Position numbers and translations under genes: made by a program
Shown: positions 6,786 to 25,255 of the stretch, piece after piece
How the letters are laid out: every line of letters begins with the position of its first letter
Position numbering within the stretch: the first letter of the stretch is position 1
The notes under the pieces: model-generated
Databases searched by the model: none
What the model saw: the letters and a program-made list of their open reading frames with translations, nothing else
What the model was told of the DNA's origin: nothing
Source: an uncultured Verrucomicrobiales bacterium
GTDB taxonomy: Bacteria; Verrucomicrobiota; Verrucomicrobiia; Verrucomicrobiales; Akkermansiaceae
Assembly (NCBI GenBank): GCA_937928425.1
Contig: CALFVL010000035.1
Location: 1-53,824 of the forward strand
Direction: 5' to 3'
Length of the DNA stretch: 53,824 nucleotides

Positions 6786-8372
6786 ATGCCAGAAATTAGA
6801 CAGCTCTGGCTTAGGCTCTACCGCCTCGCGATCATCACCCTTATCGCATGGCTCATCTACCAACGAGCAGAAATCCCACCTTCGCAAGGAAACTTCCGCA
6901 CCCTCTTTCCAAGTGGAGACCGTATCGAGGGGCAGCGAGTCCTCGACTCAGAAGGGAAAACCCTAGGCCACTTTCTGACCACCTCGCCCAGCTGTGATCA
7001 CCTTAAAGGCTACTCTGGTCCCACCAATATCGCCTTAGCTCTCAGCCCGAGCGGGCAACTCATAGACACTCAGATCATCCACTCTGCGGACACCCCAGAC
7101 CACCTCCAATCCATCATCGCAGATCAAGCCTTCTGGGACGCTCATCTTGGCCTCACCCTTGGTGCTCCCCGCCAAGTAGAAATCGACGCCGTTTCTGGAT
7201 CCACCCTCACCAGCAGTGCCATCACCCGTAGCATCATCGAGCGGCTCGGTGGACTCACTTCTTCCAGACTATTTCCCACCCAGATCCTCCTGGCAGAACT
7301 CCCGGAAGCAGCCTCCCTCACTCCACACCCCCACTGGCCTGGAGTCTCATCCATCTACGATCACTCCCGTACATTAATCGGCCATGCTCTCCGTACCGCC
7401 CCCTCACAAGAATACTTCCACGGCTACCAAGGCCCTACTGACATCCTCATCATTCTTAATCCCAGCGCCACTAAAGTCACCCGCCTCCGTTTCCGTAAAA
7501 GCTATGATAACCCAGAATACTATGAACGCATTCTCGACCATGCCCACTTTCTGGAACTCTACGATGGCCTCCTCATCTCAGAAATCCTCGCCATAGATCA
7601 ATCCACAGTAGAAGGCGTCAGCGGAGCCACCCACACCTCATGGGCCATCGCCGAAAGCGTCGCCCGCCGCCTCGCTCGCTTCGAGTCAGACCGCCGCCCA
7701 GCACCCACGCCTATCCCTTGGCGTAATCTCGCCCTCATCGCCCTCACTCTCGGCGCCACCCTCTTCTCCTTCACTAAACTTCGTGGAAAACCCATCCCAC
7801 GGCTCCTTTGGCAAATTAGCGTCATCATAATTTTAGGCCTCCTCCTCGGTGACCTCATCTCTCAGGCCCTTCTCCTCGGCTGGGCTCGCCACGGGCTCCC
7901 CTTCTCAGACTCATGGGGTCTCGCCGCTCTCGTCGGAGCAGCTCTTCTCATCCCCTGGGCGAGTGGCCGCCAACTTTACTGTCACCAGCTATGTCCTCAC
8001 GGATTCTTACAACGCTGGCTTGGTAAACTTCCCATCAAGCCCATTAAACTGCCCCCATCACTCCACCGACTCCTCACACATCTTCCCTTTCTCCTCCTCA
8101 CCCTCCTCATTGCCTCGGCCATTACAGGAGCCTCATGGAACCTTGCCGCGTGGGAAGGTTTTGACGCTTGGCTGTGGCGCTCGGCAGGACTCTCCACCAT
8201 CGTCATCGCCATCTTGGGGCTTGTCGCCTCCATTTTCTCCCCGCTCGCTTACTGTAAATACGGATGTCCAACTGGAGCTCTCTTCAAATTCCTTAGTAAA
8301 TCATCCGCTACGAACCGCTTCACCCTCCGTGATCTGCTCGCCGCGCTCCTATGCCTCCTCGCCCTCCTCTGA
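6786..8372 (+). CDS. membrane protein with two FMN-binding domains and NosR-type Cys motifs
   Basis: A 528-residue membrane redox protein. After an N-terminal helix (about residues 10-26) come two tandem FMN_bind domains. Each ends in a flavin-transferase attachment motif: SGSTLT (137-142, acceptor T142) and SGATHT (279-284, acceptor T284). In NqrC, RnfG and NosR an equivalent threonine is covalently loaded with FMN by ApbE. The C-terminal half has about six hydrophobic helices and two CxxxCP motifs, C399-C403-P404 and C490-C494-P495, as in the NosR/NirI membrane core. It lacks the C-terminal bacterial ferredoxin domain of full NosR and ends in a leucine-rich helix. It sits 10 bases after the secreted FAD oxidoreductase, suggesting delivery of electrons to or from that enzyme. 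No nos genes or apbE are in the window. Confidence 0.85.
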   Translation: MPEIRQLWLRLYRLAIITLIAWLIYQRAEIPPSQGNFRTLFPSGDRIEGQRVLDSEGKTLGHFLTTSPSCDHLKGYSGPTNIALALSPSGQLIDTQIIHSADTPDHLQSIIADQAFWDAHLGLTLGAPRQVEIDAVSGSTLTSSAITRSIIERLGGLTSSRLFPTQILLAELPEAASLTPHPHWPGVSSIYDHSRTLIGHALRTAPSQEYFHGYQGPTDILIILNPSATKVTRLRFRKSYDNPEYYERILDHAHFLELYDGLLISEILAIDQSTVEGVSGATHTSWAIAESVARRLARFESDRRPAPTPIPWRNLALIALTLGATLFSFTKLRGKPIPRLLWQISVIIILGLLLGDLISQALLLGWARHGLPFSDSWGLAALVGAALLIPWASGRQLYCHQLCPHGFLQRWLGKLPIKPIKLPPSLHRLLTHLPFLLLTLLIASAITGASWNLAAWEGFDAWLWRSAGLSTIVIAILGLVASIFSPLAYCKYGCPTGALFKFLSKSSATNRFTLRDLLAALLCLLALL

Positions 8373-14129: not shown

Positions 14130-14900
14130 ATGAAATTTTCTATTGCAAAGCTAAGCCTCCTCCTATCCTCCCTCACCGCAGCATCCCACGCAGTTGTGGT
14201 CTTTACCGAAGACTTCTCTTCAATCGCGCCCGGCGGCGCCATCAACGGCCTCAACGCAACTGGGGACGGCTCCTTCGCGAGCTCCGCTGGAAATGTCACT
14301 GGTAATGCCAATAACCAAGCCGCTCTTGTATCAGATGGAGGACGAGACGCTATTCAAATTAACTCCACCACTCAGACTAGCTTTGGCAATCTCGGCTTCG
14401 ACATCGCATTTCTTGGAGACACCGTAGTGGATCCAGCCGTGCCGGCTAGCGACACCGACATATTCTTTGTCCAGCTCACTGAAGGAAATCGTAGCACAGG
14501 AGGATCTCCAGTTTCCGGTTTTGCGCACGCCATCGACGCCAGTAACTTAGGAATCTCCACCGTAGCGACTTCTCCTAGCAGAGCTAATTATTTCTTCAAT
14601 GCAACCGCTGCTCCCCTCAACTACACCGCTCCAGATGGAACGACCCAGACCCTCGCTGCTGGCGCCTTTGACTTCTGGGTTGATACCACCCAACAACTCG
14701 TTGGATCTTCAAATACCACGAACGGCACCGCTACTCCGGGATTTATTTCCACCTTCGTCGCGCAAACTTTTCCTCAACAAGAAGGACAGACCTTCGTTTT
14801 CGACAACATCGAGTTACAAGACATTACCGTCCCTGAGCCATCAACAAGCATGGTCCTAGCTCTTGGTCTCCTTGGCTTCATCAGCAAGCGTAAGCGCTAA
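14130..14900 (+). CDS. PEP-CTERM sorting domain protein
   Basis: A 256-residue secreted protein with an N-terminal signal peptide (MKFSIAKLSLLLSSLTAASHA) and a C-terminal PEP-CTERM tail. The tail is VPEPSTSMVLALGLLGFISKRKR: the PEP box, one hydrophobic helix and a basic end. Such proteins are processed by an exosortase (EpsH/XrtA type) and often end up in an exopolysaccharide matrix. The middle is rich in A, S, T, N and G with the DNIELQDITV segment typical of PEP-CTERM beta-sandwich proteins, and it has no catalytic motif I recognise. No exosortase gene is in the window, so it must lie elsewhere. A strong hairpin terminator follows directly, so this is a single-gene transcript. Confidence 0.85.
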   Translation: MKFSIAKLSLLLSSLTAASHAVVVFTEDFSSIAPGGAINGLNATGDGSFASSAGNVTGNANNQAALVSDGGRDAIQINSTTQTSFGNLGFDIAFLGDTVVDPAVPASDTDIFFVQLTEGNRSTGGSPVSGFAHAIDASNLGISTVATSPSRANYFFNATAAPLNYTAPDGTTQTLAAGAFDFWVDTTQQLVGSSNTTNGTATPGFISTFVAQTFPQQEGQTFVFDNIELQDITVPEPSTSMVLALGLLGFISKRKR

Positions 14901-16366: not shown

Positions 16367-17323
16367 TCAGGGCCTTGGGATCCGGTAGTCAGGATCAAGC
16401 GCCCGCACCTCTTCCGCTGCTTTAGAGAATCTAGCTCGGTAACCTAGTGCAATCTGATCGAACTTCCGAGCTCGCCCAGCCCAGGTCTCCAGCTTTCCAG
16501 GGACCGACCGTTTCGAGGAAAAGCGGTCATTACGTCGGGCCGTTTCTGCAGTCTCTTCAGCATAACGAATCAAGTCGACATACTTCTCCATCTCCACCAC
16601 TGCTTTTGCCAACTCCGCATCCAAGGCCGCCTTAATTTCAGAGCGGCTCGGCTGCCCTGGTTTTGTCGTCTTCTGTGATCTAAACTTCTTACCCCGCGCA
16701 TCCTTCAGTAACATCGCAGCCATCACCGCTCTTGCCTCAGCTAGATCGAGGTCGAGAAGTTTACGGAATTTAGGACTAAGCTCCGCCACCTTGACCCGAG
16801 CTGCCCCGCTACGGTGCATCACCATAAGGCCAGCGGGATCAATCCGAGAAATTTTCGCATCCTGATACTTGAGTGGTCGTAATAGATACTCTGCCTTGAG
16901 CTCTTTATTCAGGTACTGAGACCAGATCTTTCCTCGGACAATCTGTCGATACCGCGAGTGCTTATTTTCAATTTCCTCGAGCTCATCATCTTGGCGAGAA
17001 GTCAGAAGCTGCAGGTCTGCTACTTCGTCATTTAGGATTTCTAAATCGGCCTTTAAAGCTTTGCCATCTGCCAGTGGTTTCACCAATCTTTCCTGCTCAG
17101 CAAGTAATCTTTTCTGCCGGATCAAGTCCCTCTTTAAAGATGCTAACAGCGCGGCTTGATCATGGATCCTCCCGCGCCGTTCCTCATTAAGTTCCACGGC
17201 GGATGTCGGCTCAAAAAGCCCCTTACTCACCGCAGATAAGCCAGCTGTCACCGCGACAATCGCCACGATTCCCCCCACGATTAAAGTCCCAAAACCAGAC
17301 GACTGACTCGAAAAAACACTCAT
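16367..17323 (-). CDS. membrane-anchored coiled-coil protein, paralogue of the upstream gene
   Basis: A 318-residue protein of unknown function. It has one N-terminal membrane helix (about residues 12-33, GTLIVGGIVAIVAVTAGLSAV), then a long charged coiled-coil region (about 45-130) and a small module. The module includes HSRYRQ, then KISRIDPAGLMVMHRSGAAR and VAELSPKFRKLLDLD. The gene upstream shows the same order: HGRYRS, KIREITP, RVMRSSGP and LPVSVQDRFQF. They are therefore diverged tandem paralogues. The module resembles an 'xxITPxGVxVxHxxGxxxxPxxxLP' segment that I associate with secreted Verrucomicrobiota proteins. The start overlaps the upstream stop in an ATGA arrangement (17320-17323). 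No enzymatic motif is visible, and an envelope structural or tethering role is a guess. Confidence 0.75.
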   Translation of the reverse strand: MSVFSSQSSGFGTLIVGGIVAIVAVTAGLSAVSKGLFEPTSAVELNEERRGRIHDQAALLASLKRDLIRQKRLLAEQERLVKPLADGKALKADLEILNDEVADLQLLTSRQDDELEEIENKHSRYRQIVRGKIWSQYLNKELKAEYLLRPLKYQDAKISRIDPAGLMVMHRSGAARVKVAELSPKFRKLLDLDLAEARAVMAAMLLKDARGKKFRSQKTTKPGQPSRSEIKAALDAELAKAVVEMEKYVDLIRYAEETAETARRNDRFSSKRSVPGKLETWAGRARKFDQIALGYRARFSKAAEEVRALDPDYRIPRP

Positions 17324-18297
17324 CTTTTTAATTCACTTAACTGCCTCGATAACTCCACGGCCTTTTCCCTTAACTCAGAGATTTCTAGCTTTGCCTGGAT
17401 TTCCCGTTTCACATGTAACTCGGAAAATTTCCTCGCTCTGGTCGCCTTACCCCGGCTAGAGGAAATTTTCCCTGAGGCCTTCGCTCGGTCCGCCGAAGTT
17501 TGGTGCTCCGTCGCCTCCCGCTTGTATCTCAGGGCTGCGGCTTGCTCTCGATCTGCCAATTCCCTCTTCGCCTGCATCTCAGCTTCTAGTCGGGCAATTT
17601 GATGCCGCAGGTTCTCTTTTCTCGAGCGCTCCTTTTTCTCACTCAAGCGCTGCTGGTTCGCCGCATGAAAAGCGTCACGCTTTTCACTCGCGTGACTCAT
17701 CTTCTCTCTAAAGTCACTTGCCTCTTCTTCGCTAAATTGGAAGCGATCCTGCACTGAGACAGGAAGTCGCTGATAGGGAATCCCGATCGGTCCTGAACTT
17801 CTCATTACGCGGACATGGATCGGCGTGATTTCCCTGATTTTACTACGCTTATATTCAGCTCCCAGAGTTTCAGAAAGATCTAGAACTTCACCAATCGCGG
17901 TCCTGCGCTCACTCAGGCGGTAACGGCTCCGATAGCGCCCATGCTCTTCCTCGATTTCTCCTAAGCCTGCTTTGAGATCTTCAAGAAAAGCCTCACACTT
18001 CCCAACTGCCCCTTCATGTTCAGCAAGCTCCTCTGACATCTTCGCCGCAATTTGAACCTCTTCACGAGCCTGAACAGCTTTCTTAAGTCTCTCTTCTTCC
18101 CTTTTAAGATCGTAAGAAAGTTGCTCAATGATTCTTCCGCGATCAGCGATCCTAGAGCTCAGGCTGTGGTCTTTTCTTCCCGCATCCCCACTCATCACTG
18201 CCATTCCTAAGCCACAAAAACCGGCTAAGACAAGAAGCCCTAGCACTAAACCAGCAACTCCGACACTCCGGGAGTCATCATTAAAATCGTTAAACAT
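17320..18297 (-). CDS. membrane-anchored coiled-coil protein, paralogue of the downstream gene
   Basis: A 325-residue protein with an N-terminal helix (about residues 11-33, SVGVAGLVLGLLVLAGFCGLG). A heptad-like charged region follows (about 45-125). Then comes the module with HGRYRSRYR, KIREITPIHVRVMRSSGP and LPVSVQDRFQFSEEEA. A second long, Lys/Glu/Arg/Ala-rich coiled coil runs from about residue 200 to the end. It shares the module and layout with the next gene, to which it is coupled by a 4-base ATGA overlap. A coiled-coil lipoprotein gene lies 33 bases upstream in the same direction. The function is unknown. The architecture suggests a filament or spacer in the periplasm, which is inference only. 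Confidence 0.75.
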   Translation of the reverse strand: MFNDFNDDSRSVGVAGLVLGLLVLAGFCGLGMAVMSGDAGRKDHSLSSRIADRGRIIEQLSYDLKREEERLKKAVQAREEVQIAAKMSEELAEHEGAVGKCEAFLEDLKAGLGEIEEEHGRYRSRYRLSERRTAIGEVLDLSETLGAEYKRSKIREITPIHVRVMRSSGPIGIPYQRLPVSVQDRFQFSEEEASDFREKMSHASEKRDAFHAANQQRLSEKKERSRKENLRHQIARLEAEMQAKRELADREQAAALRYKREATEHQTSADRAKASGKISSSRGKATRARKFSELHVKREIQAKLEISELREKAVELSRQLSELKR

Positions 18298-18330
18298 CGT
18301 GTATAAGCGTTTAGACTGGATCTCTGCCCT

Positions 18331-18657
18331 CTACCGAATCGGGTAGTCTTTTTTGTATTTTTCGAGGTTTTCAGCTGCCTCTTTCTTCTTCACCTCTAGG
18401 TCCTCGAGCTCCTTCTCTAGGTCAGTTTTTTTCTGAGCTGCTTCTTTCACTTGTCCCTTTAACTTTTCAAGATCAGGGAATTCCTCAGGAATTTCGATTT
18501 CTTCAATTTTATTCCGAACCGCCCTAACCTTATCTTCTAGAACTTCGATTTGCTCGGCTTGTTCGCGGTGCTTCTTCACTAAGGACTCATCCTCTTGCTC
18601 TCCCTGACAGGAAAATAAAAAAAAGCAGATAGGAGAAAGAACTAATGAACACCTCAC
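18331..18657 (-). CDS. small coiled-coil lipoprotein
   Basis: A 108-residue predicted lipoprotein. The signal peptide MRCSLVLSPICFFLFSC ends in a lipobox-like LFSC with the lipidated cysteine at about residue 17. The rest is almost wholly a charged coiled coil (E, K, L and V heptads, about residues 25-100), reminiscent in build but not sequence of Lpp-like spacer lipoproteins. It is the first gene of a three-gene minus-strand run with two membrane-anchored coiled-coil proteins. So one lipid-anchored and two inner-membrane-anchored coiled coils are made together. Lipidation would need LspA, encoded at 11548-12165. The function is unknown. Confidence 0.7.
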   Translation of the reverse strand: MRCSLVLSPICFFLFSCQGEQEDESLVKKHREQAEQIEVLEDKVRAVRNKIEEIEIPEEFPDLEKLKGQVKEAAQKKTDLEKELEDLEVKKKEAAENLEKYKKDYPIR

Positions 18658-18778
18658 CCCCTAGATATCAAAGTAAAACGGTCACTATGTCAACTTTAAG
18701 AAGAACCAATGAAGTGTCTCAAAGTAGATCTCTCTAACAGAAAAAGCAGCTCGCAGACATGTCCTCTAACCCTCTCCC

Positions 18779-20526: not shown

Positions 20527-22197
20527 CTAGCGTCTCTTTTCCTTTTTAAGGACTTTCTGCAACTCAGGGGTGAAAATCTCAGCGACTTCATCCTGACTCG
20601 CGTTCGGATTCTGCTCCAAGAAAGTTCTCAAATCCGCCTTCTCTTCAATCGTTAGTCCCAAGTTCGATGAAATCTGATCGACTCGCTTGAAAACTCTTCG
20701 ATCTATCTCAGCAGCTTCTTGCTCCGTGATAAAAGCTTCCAGCTCACGCCTTTGATCCGCTGATAAGAAATTCCCGATTTCTGATAGAATCTCATCATTA
20801 CTTTTCCAGAGATTAGGAGGGATGCCCCCTTCATCCTCTTGAGAAAAGTGTTCTTTTTCGATTTGCTCATACTCAGCCTCCAGATCATCTAAGTAAGTTC
20901 GCAGCTCAGGATCCATCTCACCCTTCTCTTCTAAAATCATCAGAGCCATGAAATCCACTGCCGCATTATCACCTTCTAGCAAGGGCAAGACATCCTTAAA
21001 GTCCGGCTCTGATCCCGCCTCAAAACTCTGACGTTGATCAAAGTTAGCCTCGACCAAGCTGGCTAGTTTCTCTTTCTGCTCCTCGTTCAACTCTAGTCTC
21101 AGACCGATCACTTCCACTTCAGCAAGAGCCTTTCCCTTATCAATCCCCCCCAAAAACTCCTCAGAGAATAGCCCTTTCTCGGTTCCAGAGTCCTCCTCCG
21201 CTTGTAGCATCTCTAACATAAGAGCACCTTGCTTTAAGTAAACTTGCGGAATCTTATTCCTTATTGAATCTGAGGAAGATTTATTCCTTTCAGCGGCAGA
21301 ACGCTTGAGCTTTTTATCCATCCCCTCATCGCTGGCAGCTCTCACACTCGAGGATGAGGTGGCACTCGCCACTTGCGAGCTCGCTTCAGCTTGAGAATAG
21401 GCTTTTCCAGAGTCGTCACTTTGATTTTTAGCCACATACACCGTGGTCCCGACGAGAAGAGATGCTGCAACAGCACCTCCGGCAATCATTTTCGTTTTCA
21501 TAATAATAAGAGAGCTTACCGCAGCTCCAGCGGTTGAGGCTCCGGCCTGCGCGGCCAGAACATTTATTTTAAGATTCGTAATTAAAGAAGGAGGGAGTGT
21601 TTGAACCCCTTGGCTAGAAATAGTGCTCGTCAAGAGAGCGATGCTTGAGGTGACCCCTCTCCGCTTAAGTAGATGGTTTAATTTTTCCAAAGAACGCTGG
21701 AGCCGCATCCGTGCGGCATCAGGACTCAAACCGAGCTGATTACCTAGATCTGCAAAACTTAGACCCTTAAAAAAACGGAGGACGACTAGCTCTTTCTCTA
21801 AAGGCTTCAACTTATCTAAAGCCCCGATGATGAGAGGCCGAGTTGACTCAGGGAGAACTTGTTCATCCTCATCTAAATTCATCTTTTGTTCCATATATCT
21901 TTCCTCTCTTTTCCTACGTCGGATTTCCTCTCGGCGAAGATTTCGAGCATGATTCCGGGCACTTAGAAAAATCCACCCTGCTACGGTCTTCCTCTTCCGT
22001 AGCTTCTTCGCCTCCTTCGCTAGCTGGAGAAAGGTTAACTGGCACGCTTCCTCTGCTAAATTCTCGGCACCTGTCTCCATCACCACAGCTGAATAGGCCA
22101 CCTTGGCGTGCCTTGCGATCAGGCTCGAGAAAGCCTCTTCATCACCCTGAGTGACAAATTTAGAAAGCAGCTGAGTATCAGATCTCAAGTCGTCCAT
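20527..22197 (-). CDS. ECF sigma factor fused to a membrane helix and extracytoplasmic helical domain
   Basis: A 556-residue protein. Residues about 1-90 are sigma-70 region 2 and about 120-180 are region 4 (LRFFKGLSFADLGNQLGLSPDAA is the helix-turn-helix part). A linker leads to a membrane helix at about 236-256 (MIAGGAVAASLLVGTTVYVA). The rest, about 300 residues, is Glu/Lys/Ser-rich and would lie outside the cytoplasm. It repeats short LTxxQ-like elements, ELNEEQKEKL (369-378), LSADQRREL (478-486) and LTIEEKADL (515-523), which recall Spy/CpxP-type helices. Sigma factors with C-terminal membrane extensions are known in Verrucomicrobiota and Planctomycetota. It may sense envelope state without a separate anti-sigma factor; this is inference. 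A perfect terminator follows. No anti-sigma gene is adjacent. Confidence 0.86.
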   Translation of the reverse strand: MDDLRSDTQLLSKFVTQGDEEAFSSLIARHAKVAYSAVVMETGAENLAEEACQLTFLQLAKEAKKLRKRKTVAGWIFLSARNHARNLRREEIRRRKREERYMEQKMNLDEDEQVLPESTRPLIIGALDKLKPLEKELVVLRFFKGLSFADLGNQLGLSPDAARMRLQRSLEKLNHLLKRRGVTSSIALLTSTISSQGVQTLPPSLITNLKINVLAAQAGASTAGAAVSSLIIMKTKMIAGGAVAASLLVGTTVYVAKNQSDDSGKAYSQAEASSQVASATSSSSVRAASDEGMDKKLKRSAAERNKSSSDSIRNKIPQVYLKQGALMLEMLQAEEDSGTEKGLFSEEFLGGIDKGKALAEVEVIGLRLELNEEQKEKLASLVEANFDQRQSFEAGSEPDFKDVLPLLEGDNAAVDFMALMILEEKGEMDPELRTYLDDLEAEYEQIEKEHFSQEDEGGIPPNLWKSNDEILSEIGNFLSADQRRELEAFITEQEAAEIDRRVFKRVDQISSNLGLTIEEKADLRTFLEQNPNASQDEVAEIFTPELQKVLKKEKRR

Positions 22198-22288: not shown

Positions 22289-25255
22289 TCACTCGGGAAA
22301 AAAAATCTCCGCTTTCAAGATATCTTTGTATGTCTTCTCCTCGATCCGTAGCGCTCTAATCTCCCGAGTCTCTTGAGCTGAACCAAAATTACGGATCACT
22401 TGTAGCTCTGCGGTTACCGTGCTCGTCCCTTCATCACTCCAATCTCCAAAAAATCTCGCTCCGAAGTGATGCTTCCCAGGGCCTAAGCCCTGTAAAGCCA
22501 GAGATTCTGGCCCAAATCCGGCCGAAACATTCCCTGAGCTCCAGATGAATGAATGAGGTTTTGCTGATCGTAAATTCGTAACCCAAGATTTGCTCGCGTC
22601 ACGAAAGATTAAATCTAAATTACTCTGAGTCGCATCCCATTCTAAAACGGCCCGCAGCTCGAGCGGAACATGCTTCACAAAGCGGGGATCGATCCCAAAC
22701 TCCGCAGCATTCAACTTCTCCTTAGCTAAAAGAGCATTCATCTCTTCTATCATCACAAGCTGGCGCCCCACGTTATATTTACCTTCCTCGATTTGGGCCG
22801 CCGCCCAATAAAGTTTAACGGCCTCAGTTGTCATCCCCAGCGCCTGTTTCACCCTAGCTAAATCATACATCGCAAGGGGATCATCCGGCTGACTTTCGTT
22901 TAAATAACGGAAAATTTCATGTGCGTATTCTAAGCCTCCAAGGCGACGAAAAGCTCGTGCCGCTCGGCGGAGAATCTCATAATTTTCTGGAAACAGCTCA
23001 GCTAAATCCCCTGTGACTAACAGGGCATTTTCCCTCTCATCTCGTTCCTCTAGAAAACTAATGACATCTAGGTAAAAATCGGCCCTCCAGCCGCAAGCAG
23101 CACGATAAGTTCGGTAGCTCTCCCACCATTTTTTCTCGTCTCCTACTACTTTAGCGAGTGCCTCCAGATAGTATCGAGCAGCTTGCTCATCTCCTTTTTC
23201 AAAAGAAATTGCACCTGTAACTTGATCCACGAACGGGGCTTTTATCATGCCCTTCCCACCCCCATTCCCGATCCACCTCTTCTCGGGGACTTCCACGAGG
23301 TCGCCATCATACAATGTGACTCCTCGCTGAGCGTCCGTTTTTAAATTGAAAACATACACTTTCCCACTTCGATAAAGTTTCACGCGATTGATCGCCCCAA
23401 AGGGGGTGGCGCCGCCAGCAGCAGCCACTGCCTCAAAGAGCGTGCTCCGAAGTGGCAACAGTTTCTGCCCAGCGTCCAGCACCTGCCCTCCCACCGTAAC
23501 CACCATCCAAGGAATTTGCGATTTGGACTCGGACTCCAAATCAGCAAAAGATTCCCATAGTTTTTTAACGCTAGGCAGATCATCTTTCTCAACTGCGCCC
23601 TCTAAAGACTTCTGAATTTTAATATACTGAGCCGCTAAGAGGATGACCTTGTCCGTCTCGACCTCTCCCTTGTGCTTAAGAATATCCTCTAGCTGAGCGA
23701 CTCTTCCTCTGACTGCCCGTAAAGCTCGTTCTGCTAAGGGCAACACTGGAGCACTCAAGCTCTCACACCTTTCTTTCCAGAACTCGGCGAGCTGATCCAT
23801 TTGCCCCTCCTGTCGTACGATTGATGTCTTTTGTAGCTTCTCCCACTCTTGATATAACTTCTCATCCTCCTTTGGGGGGGTGATTTGGAACTCTTGATAC
23901 TGGCTTGCGGTCTCTAAGACGATCATAGATGACGAGGAATCCATAACTCCATAATGGTAATTAAAGGCACTTAACTCCTCCCCTTTCACTCCGAGGTTTC
24001 TCATTTCTTGACTACGTAGGCGAGCCCAGAGCCAAGTTGCGATTGGCGTCTCTAAACCCTCTGAACCATCTCTCAGGGCGATCAACTGACCGAGAACTTC
24101 CCCCACGAGACTCACCTTAGAATCAAGCGCACCCATCAGCGGGTCTAATCCCACCGAACTATGCCATCCACCTCCTGAGCGGAGAGCTCGTCCGCGGAGC
24201 CATTTGCTAGAGCCCTTGCCACTATCGATGACATGCAGCGGGCAATTGGTCTCCCCTAGACCAGTCCGTCCGGTGGCAAAGTTCCCATCCGAAAGAAAGA
24301 TCAGAGCATCAGCATGAACCTCTTTCCAAGGAAGCACGTGGGGACGGGCCATCCCCATCCGGTCTACTTTGGAAATCATCTGGAAAAGTTCCGGGGCCTC
24401 ACCTCCTTTTAGGATAAATTTTTGCTCTTCCTCCACCTCGTCACGGAAGACGTGTAGGCTAATCTCAGCATCTTGATAAAGACCTAAAAGTTCGCTGAGC
24501 CGGTCCACCGCAGCTTTAGAAATCTGAGCTGTTCCATCTAGCCACAGCTCGATCGTTTCTGCTTCCAAAGCCACCTCATCTCCGTCTCGCTCGATGAAAG
24601 ACAAGTCTCCATAATCACAACGGTAAGAAGAGCCTGCAATAGGCCTCCACGTCATTTTCTCAAGGGGCACTGCTCCACTTTCTCCCGCCTGCTGTTCCGG
24701 GAAATTTCCGTATTCCCCGCCTCTTGTCTCCAGTGCCAAACTCCACTTCTCAGGCTGGCCAAGTCCCCTCGGCCACACTCTCACTTCCCCTTCTTCCACG
24801 CTCTGAACCGTCCTGATCCACACAGTCTTAGTTCCTTTGGCCGGAATCGGGAACACTCGAGTCCGGAACTCATGAGTCACCTCATTCACCTCGATTAAAC
24901 CGGGGTCGACTCCACGCCTCACAATCGTTTCGTAGGCGATCTTTGCCTGCTTCTTAGGGACGACCACTCCCTTCCGCTTGATTCCATTCACATCCATCGA
25001 GAAGGAGACGATTTCCTCCCCTTCATCAAGCGGGCAAGTTAAGTCTCCCTCAGCGACTGAGCGGCCCGGATTATAAAAAGTCAGGGTGAGATCGCGGATC
25101 AACAAGCGTCCATGAAGTCGACACGCTACCTCTGCTTCTTTAAAGGAAGCGGGTCTCCCTGCGATATTTAAACTGATCTCAGCGAAACTGGCCACGCACA
25201 GGGACAGCATTAAAAAGAATAACTTCACACAAAAAGAGACCAGCCAGCCCCTCAA
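22289..25255 (-). CDS. secreted VIT / VWA-like / SLBB / TPR / DUF2135-like protein
   Basis: A 988-residue multidomain protein starting at a TTG codon. That is the only start giving a full signal peptide (FCVKLFFLMLSLCVASFA, residues 8-25), and an in-frame TAG lies just upstream. Order: VIT domain (about 30-150); VWA-like region (about 233-345) with LFLSDGNFATGRT-type strand ends but LWLDGTAQ where the metal-binding DxSxS should be, so the MIDAS is degenerate. An SLBB domain (about 585-661; VTVGGQVLDAG, AAAGGATPFGAINRVKLYR, LYDGDLVEVPE) is followed by TPR-like repeats (about 690-830). A C-terminal DUF2135-like beta region (about 868-955) begins VLEWDATQSNLDLIF. VIT-VWA proteins act at cell surfaces and SLBB occurs in polysaccharide export. 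The function is unknown. Confidence 0.8.
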   Translation of the reverse strand: MRGWLVSFCVKLFFLMLSLCVASFAEISLNIAGRPASFKEAEVACRLHGRLLIRDLTLTFYNPGRSVAEGDLTCPLDEGEEIVSFSMDVNGIKRKGVVVPKKQAKIAYETIVRRGVDPGLIEVNEVTHEFRTRVFPIPAKGTKTVWIRTVQSVEEGEVRVWPRGLGQPEKWSLALETRGGEYGNFPEQQAGESGAVPLEKMTWRPIAGSSYRCDYGDLSFIERDGDEVALEAETIELWLDGTAQISKAAVDRLSELLGLYQDAEISLHVFRDEVEEEQKFILKGGEAPELFQMISKVDRMGMARPHVLPWKEVHADALIFLSDGNFATGRTGLGETNCPLHVIDSGKGSSKWLRGRALRSGGGWHSSVGLDPLMGALDSKVSLVGEVLGQLIALRDGSEGLETPIATWLWARLRSQEMRNLGVKGEELSAFNYHYGVMDSSSSMIVLETASQYQEFQITPPKEDEKLYQEWEKLQKTSIVRQEGQMDQLAEFWKERCESLSAPVLPLAERALRAVRGRVAQLEDILKHKGEVETDKVILLAAQYIKIQKSLEGAVEKDDLPSVKKLWESFADLESESKSQIPWMVVTVGGQVLDAGQKLLPLRSTLFEAVAAAGGATPFGAINRVKLYRSGKVYVFNLKTDAQRGVTLYDGDLVEVPEKRWIGNGGGKGMIKAPFVDQVTGAISFEKGDEQAARYYLEALAKVVGDEKKWWESYRTYRAACGWRADFYLDVISFLEERDERENALLVTGDLAELFPENYEILRRAARAFRRLGGLEYAHEIFRYLNESQPDDPLAMYDLARVKQALGMTTEAVKLYWAAAQIEEGKYNVGRQLVMIEEMNALLAKEKLNAAEFGIDPRFVKHVPLELRAVLEWDATQSNLDLIFRDASKSWVTNLRSAKPHSFIWSSGNVSAGFGPESLALQGLGPGKHHFGARFFGDWSDEGTSTVTAELQVIRNFGSAQETREIRALRIEEKTYKDILKAEIFFPE

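Follow-up and report, generated by a model that had tools for sequence, protein, structure and literature searches.

What kind of structure at the cell envelope can be formed by one small lipoprotein and two membrane-anchored coiled-coil proteins that are encoded side by side in a member of the Akkermansiaceae? The question arises from three adjacent genes, here called P3, P2 and P1, in a stretch of 53,824 nucleotides from an uncultured Verrucomicrobiales bacterium (the window). The envelope biology of the Verrucomicrobiota, Akkermansia included, is poorly charted, and we found no paper on these three proteins.

Gene organisation

The first-pass annotation had placed a three-gene operon in this region (16367-18657), and minus-strand open reading frames are indeed found exactly there:

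18658-18778, minus strand: gap of 121 bp upstream of P3, which may contain a promoter
18331-18657, minus strand: P3, 108 aa, GTG start, lipobox LFSC with Cys17; a coiled-coil stalk alone, with YKKDYPIR at the C-terminus
17320-18297, minus strand: P2, 325 aa, hydrophobic segment/TM at about residues 12-35; in the AlphaFold2 model a stalk helix (46-134), a beta module (about 136-190) and a C-terminal helical hairpin (190-324)
17728-17890, minus strand: predicted beta module of P2, an SHD1-like small beta domain
17320-17323, minus strand: 4-nt stop/start overlap (ATGA) of P2 and P1
16367-17323, minus strand: P1, 318 aa, a P2 paralogue, hydrophobic segment/TM at about residues 12-33, stalk (39-137), beta module (about 138-193), then C-terminal helices with an RSVPGxLETW-like motif
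16744-16908, minus strand: predicted beta module of P1 (residues about 139-193)

P3 and P2 are spaced by 33 nt, and the overlap of P2 and P1, which had been noted before and is seen as ATGA, is repeated in L100, L102, L118 and L124, giving five loci with the window. The gap upstream of P3 contains a single weak sigma-70-like match (18722-18693), such matches being no commoner than in shuffled sequences, and is bordered by a same-strand gene for a class-V aminotransferase (cysteine desulfurase type) that ends 121 bp upstream of P3. Downstream of the cassette lies a convergent kinase-like gene (SBD_N/NBD_C). Elsewhere in the window we observed an ECF sigma factor (20527-22197, minus) that contains a hydrophobic segment and is much extended at its C-terminus, an adjoining gene for a protein with VIT and SLBB domains (22289-25255) and a secreted protein (14130-14900, plus) whose C-terminus resembles a PEP-CTERM anchor (VPEPSTSMVLALGLLGFISKRKR).

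The lipobox of P3 occupies residues 14-17 and its cysteine is kept in every aligned P3 member, as expected for a type II signal peptide. Nearly all P1 and P2 orthologues have a single strong hydrophobic segment, and these proteins are probably exported, to judge from relatives that carry a lipobox (at locus B and in P0, see below). The AlphaFold2 models of P2 (pLDDT 84) and P1 (pLDDT 75) predict an unbroken helix over residues 46-134 and 39-137, respectively, and in both proteins a small beta module flanked by long helices. The two long proteins had been described as sharing a module that begins with HxRYR and K-I-x-x-I-x-P. The corresponding letters (HGRYR/HSRYR and KIREITP/KISRIDP) are present in both, but the HxRYR spelling is peculiar to the window genome, the form found in the family being F/W-x-x-Y-R-x-x-Y-R.

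Homology of the three proteins

The picture of a lipoprotein next to two membrane-anchored coiled-coil paralogues, given by the first-pass annotation, was upheld by the lipobox, by the hydrophobic segments and by direct comparison of P1 with P2 (BLASTP, E=1e-5). When the profiles of the P1 and P2 families were compared with hhalign, residues 1-200 aligned with a probability of 99.7% and a score of 183 (best reversed-profile control 39.9). A relation that the annotation had overlooked is that of P3 to the stalks of the other two: P3 aligned both with the stalk of P1 (score 41.2) and, over the whole distance between anchor and YxxxYR motif, with that of P2 (score 55.6). Since these scores exceed those of the controls (100 heptad-block shuffles of the P2 profile never rose above 24.9, and reversed profiles never above 21.0), the likeness goes beyond coiled-coil bias. 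On these profile comparisons P3, P2 and P1 are mutually homologous, and P3 is a version of the P2/P1 stalk that lacks the module. In a tree, which includes some long-branch rows, one branch (91/83) parts the P1 from the P2 proteins, with the P0, g3 and C types on the P1 side; this is consistent with an old duplication.

Searches against known families placed none of the three proteins. Neither Pfam (cut-off E 10) nor NCBIfam gave a family for P1 or P2, and P3 gave coiled-coil noise, with weak NCBIfam matches to NF040598 (E=0.028) and the GspS pilotin (E=0.0027) that both fall far below the cut-off. A sequence search of the PDB returned nothing but coiled-coil noise (E 0.005 and weaker). A viral origin was considered and dropped, no relative being present among viral contigs, and so was a role as a defence system, PADLOC giving no match for P1 or P2 and coiled-coil noise alone for P3. 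In our view P1-P3 represent a family that has not been described before, and not a machine of a new category.

Distribution of the cassette

Among 58 near genomes, relatives of P2 were found in 30, of P1 in 14 and of P3 in 17. The set had been called an operon, and in the neighbourhood survey the order P3-P2-P1 indeed recurred in 14 genomes of five Akkermansiaceae genera (by genus: G000, G010, G001 and G008; G027; G032, G300, G355, G367 and G325; G266, G292 and G303; G426); in G026 it is divided between two contig ends. The flanking genes change from genus to genus, which makes the cassette a unit of its own. Genus g7 retains two flanking genes (PfkB-like and dehydrogenase-like) and another two are common to G426 and genus g3. 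Neighbouring genes were rejected as a clue to function, their conservation being limited to within g7, locus B, and G426/g3.

P3 adjoins P2 in most relatives and stays with P2 where P1 is missing, namely in G289, in G032:C11 (two copies), at G300:C1:4.50 Mb, in genus g3 (its P2 relative being about 75 residues longer at the N-terminus) and at locus B. L104 likewise holds P3 and P2 without P1 and is partial, lying at a contig end. The minimal unit is thus P3 plus P2. In G020, P2 and P1 are present and P3 is not nearby. In four g7 genomes and in G303 a fourth gene, P0, precedes the cassette (L067, L116, L117, L118 and L121); its product contains the module and, in g7, begins like a lipoprotein and has a C-terminal tail rich in Tyr. 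Across the 387 genomes surveyed in the phylum, near-full-length matches to the P2 profile occurred, among the matches listed, only in Akkermansiaceae, and the matches listed from outside this family cover chiefly the module.

Anchors and stalk length

The window's genus has a second locus (locus B), situated between a DUF5069-like and a NUDIX-like gene, names that were assigned by eye and not by search. Here the relative of P2 is itself a lipoprotein, a P3-like lipoprotein lies close by and P1 is absent; the example of the window genome is G000:C34:282-1247. Compared with P2, these relatives have a similar stalk and module; they differ in being anchored by a lipid or a signal peptide and not by a TM segment, in the absence of P1 and in their fixed position. 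One relative, L079, apparently has a signal peptide alone as its N-terminus. The locus-B proteins are nested in the P2 clade of the window's genus (95/89), and in G008 the locus-B site is occupied by a TM-type P3-P2-P1 cassette, from which it follows that at least one exchange of a TM for a lipid anchor has taken place. Another locus, L072 (G004:C85), encodes a lipoprotein of 186 aa (7677-8237, minus) that looks chimaeric, with the N-terminal stalk of a P3 and the C-terminal part of a locus-B P2, and also carries a duplicated DUF5069-like gene.

The stalks are conserved in length and alike across P3, P2 and P1 despite low identity. Up to the tyrosine of the YxxxYxxR motif they measure 82.0 +/- 1.9 residues in P3 (from the lipobox cysteine, n=32; an upstream Cys was picked in two P3 rows), 88.5 +/- 3.5 in P2 (mode 87) and 91.9 +/- 2.5 in P1, the latter two counted from the hydrophobic segment, the end of which was set by a hydropathy window and is good to a few residues. 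The C-terminal parts after the module are far more variable in length. A mid-stalk proline is seen in 28/37 P3, 8/16 P1 and 1/20 P2 proteins; it may mean that P3 is kinked or folded back as a hairpin and that the stalks are perhaps not identical rods.

In the whole genome of the window organism (G000), estimated to be 97% complete, lipoproteins are clearly encoded and no LolA-family match was found, so that the membrane of P3 cannot be assumed.

The beta module

The module is widespread in Verrucomicrobiota in apparently exported proteins and has the consensus L-t-t-x-x-G-x-x-Y-x-d-V-x-I-x-x-V-x-p-x-G-i-x-I-r-H-x-x-G-x-a-r-I-p-x-x-x-L-P. Most module proteins are free of peptidase domains. Apparently exported fusions to Trypsin_2 (L130, G286:C5, 6535-8211, minus; L096, G034:C4, 4556-6166, plus) and to Peptidase_C1 (L153, L154 and L159) were also found.

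Profile searches with the module gave no known enzyme domain, and the nearest likeness was to SHD1 (PF03983, SLA1 homology domain 1), an SH3-like domain that, in its proper form, is also encoded in the window genome and the phylum. An hhalign comparison of the module profile (83 sequences) with SHD1 domains of the same phylum aligned 48 columns with a score of 24.6 and a probability of 60%, against a mean of 8.9 and a maximum of 16.0 in 200 shuffles and 11.4 with the reversed profile. The two are collinear, each strand having its counterpart, down to the closing I/V-P-x-x-x-L-[SP]; they differ in that the R-x-W-T start is missing from the module, ahead of which stands the YxxxYR end of the stalk. 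The Pfam SHD1 model matched neither P1 nor P2 nor any of 20 module sequences at a cut-off E of 10. The module appears to resemble SHD1 (SH3-like), and we do not file it as SHD1.

Structure comparison gave no significant match to a known fold. The P2 model has a small beta sheet at residues 139-174, and a Foldseek search with P2 gave nothing at E<0.001, the top rows being helical hairpins (e.g. Vipp1 and ESCRT-III) and the small-barrel protein Rpp29 appearing among the non-significant matches (E=1.5). With P1, VIA-align covered the C-terminal helices 223-313 alone (best Z 9.4, usual for helical bundles). The best PDB match of the module profile, to the C-terminal domain of ProQ (E=0.084), was not significant.

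Proposed arrangement and alternatives

Stalks that are homologous, similar and fixed in length and attached by the same end can be read most simply as lying side by side, in parallel, on one membrane. We therefore tentatively favour, from sequence comparison and predicted models, a heteromeric scaffold of parallel stalks that would present SHD1-like binding domains above a single membrane. P3, P2 and P1 would descend from one anchored stalk protein and would pack side by side as a heteromeric coiled-coil complex, most likely on the outer face of the inner membrane. On top of its stalk each of the two long proteins would bear an SHD1-like beta module and, after it, a helical hairpin at the C-terminus, and P3 would be a lipid-anchored stalk without module that pairs with P2. 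Two different binding modules could in this way be held at a fixed height and recruit a periplasmic partner (a peptide, a protein or a wall component). That the three form a heteromer is suggested by the co-occurrence of their genes and the common length of the stalks. The occurrence of P2-P1 without a nearby P3 in G020, the proline difference among the stalks, the SHD1 probability of 60% and the lack of a significant fold match and of a LolA match speak against this model.

The first-pass annotation had pictured a periplasm-spanning or spacing structure. In such a structure P1 and P2 would be rooted in the inner membrane and P3 in the outer one, and the coiled coils would meet in the periplasm. 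Such a bridge could be long enough, the predicted stalk helix (89 residues) and C-terminal helix (85 residues) of P2 reaching more than 20 nm if extended, and P3 is a small lipoprotein like many of those in the outer membrane. The P3 stalk, however, is homologous to that of P2, almost equal in length and anchored at the same end, which argues for parallel packing; the conserved mid-stalk proline would shorten the reach of P3, and the lack of a LolA match counts against the bridge as well. As the partners at locus B are both lipoproteins, an arrangement side by side on one membrane fits better than a two-membrane bridge. The homologous stalks and the anchor swap thus suit one membrane better, and we consider the spacer unlikely. 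A chaperone or protease adaptor, in which the module recognises substrates or wall fragments and the cassette tethers this recognition to the membrane, would be in line with the apparently exported module-peptidase fusions, but P1-P3 contain no peptidase domain, no conserved peptidase gene lies beside the cassette and most module proteins are without a peptidase, which makes this reading quite improbable. Least probable, in our view, is an alignment subcomplex similar to PilN/PilO/PilP or GspL/M/C that links an inner-membrane motor to an outer-membrane pore. Its general layout is alike and one relative of the cassette (L068) adjoins a prepilin-peptidase-like gene; against it, Pfam gave no match to the PilN, PilO, PilP and T2SS families at a cut-off E of 10, no conserved secretin, ATPase, pilin or PilM neighbours were noticed in the loci compared, and the module profile resembles SHD1.

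If the parallel scaffold on one membrane is correct, the Akkermansiaceae could possess an envelope complex in which three paralogous stalks with interchangeable lipid and TM anchors hold a lineage-expanded SHD1-like domain at a set height, a verrucomicrobial scaffold without counterpart in model bacteria; we regard this wider claim as possible and rather doubtful. A conserved three-gene unit without a Pfam or NCBIfam family has now been named, so that three proteins formerly called hypothetical can be studied as a proposed complex, and an apparently extracytoplasmic domain found throughout the phylum links the cassette to secreted peptidases. The P3-P2 pair occurs in a genus with complete genomes of 2.7-3.2 Mb, so that a cultured relative could serve for such work.

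Comparison with known systems

PilN, PilO and PilP comprise paralogous bitopic proteins (a short N-terminus, a TM segment, a coiled coil and a small beta domain) and a lipoprotein, all encoded in one operon. The cassette has a similar layout of two paralogous, probably bitopic coiled-coil/beta proteins and a lipoprotein in an operon-like set; it differs from the Pil proteins in lacking a sequence match and a pilus gene context and in having a stalk that is common to the lipoprotein. With the small coiled-coil lipoproteins (e.g. the alanine zipper of Lpp/OprI and the GspS pilotin) P3 shares its short length and a sequence that is nearly all coiled coil. What sets P3 apart from these proteins is its homology with the P2 and P1 stalks, the proline halfway along its own stalk and the YxxxYxxR motif at its C-terminus.
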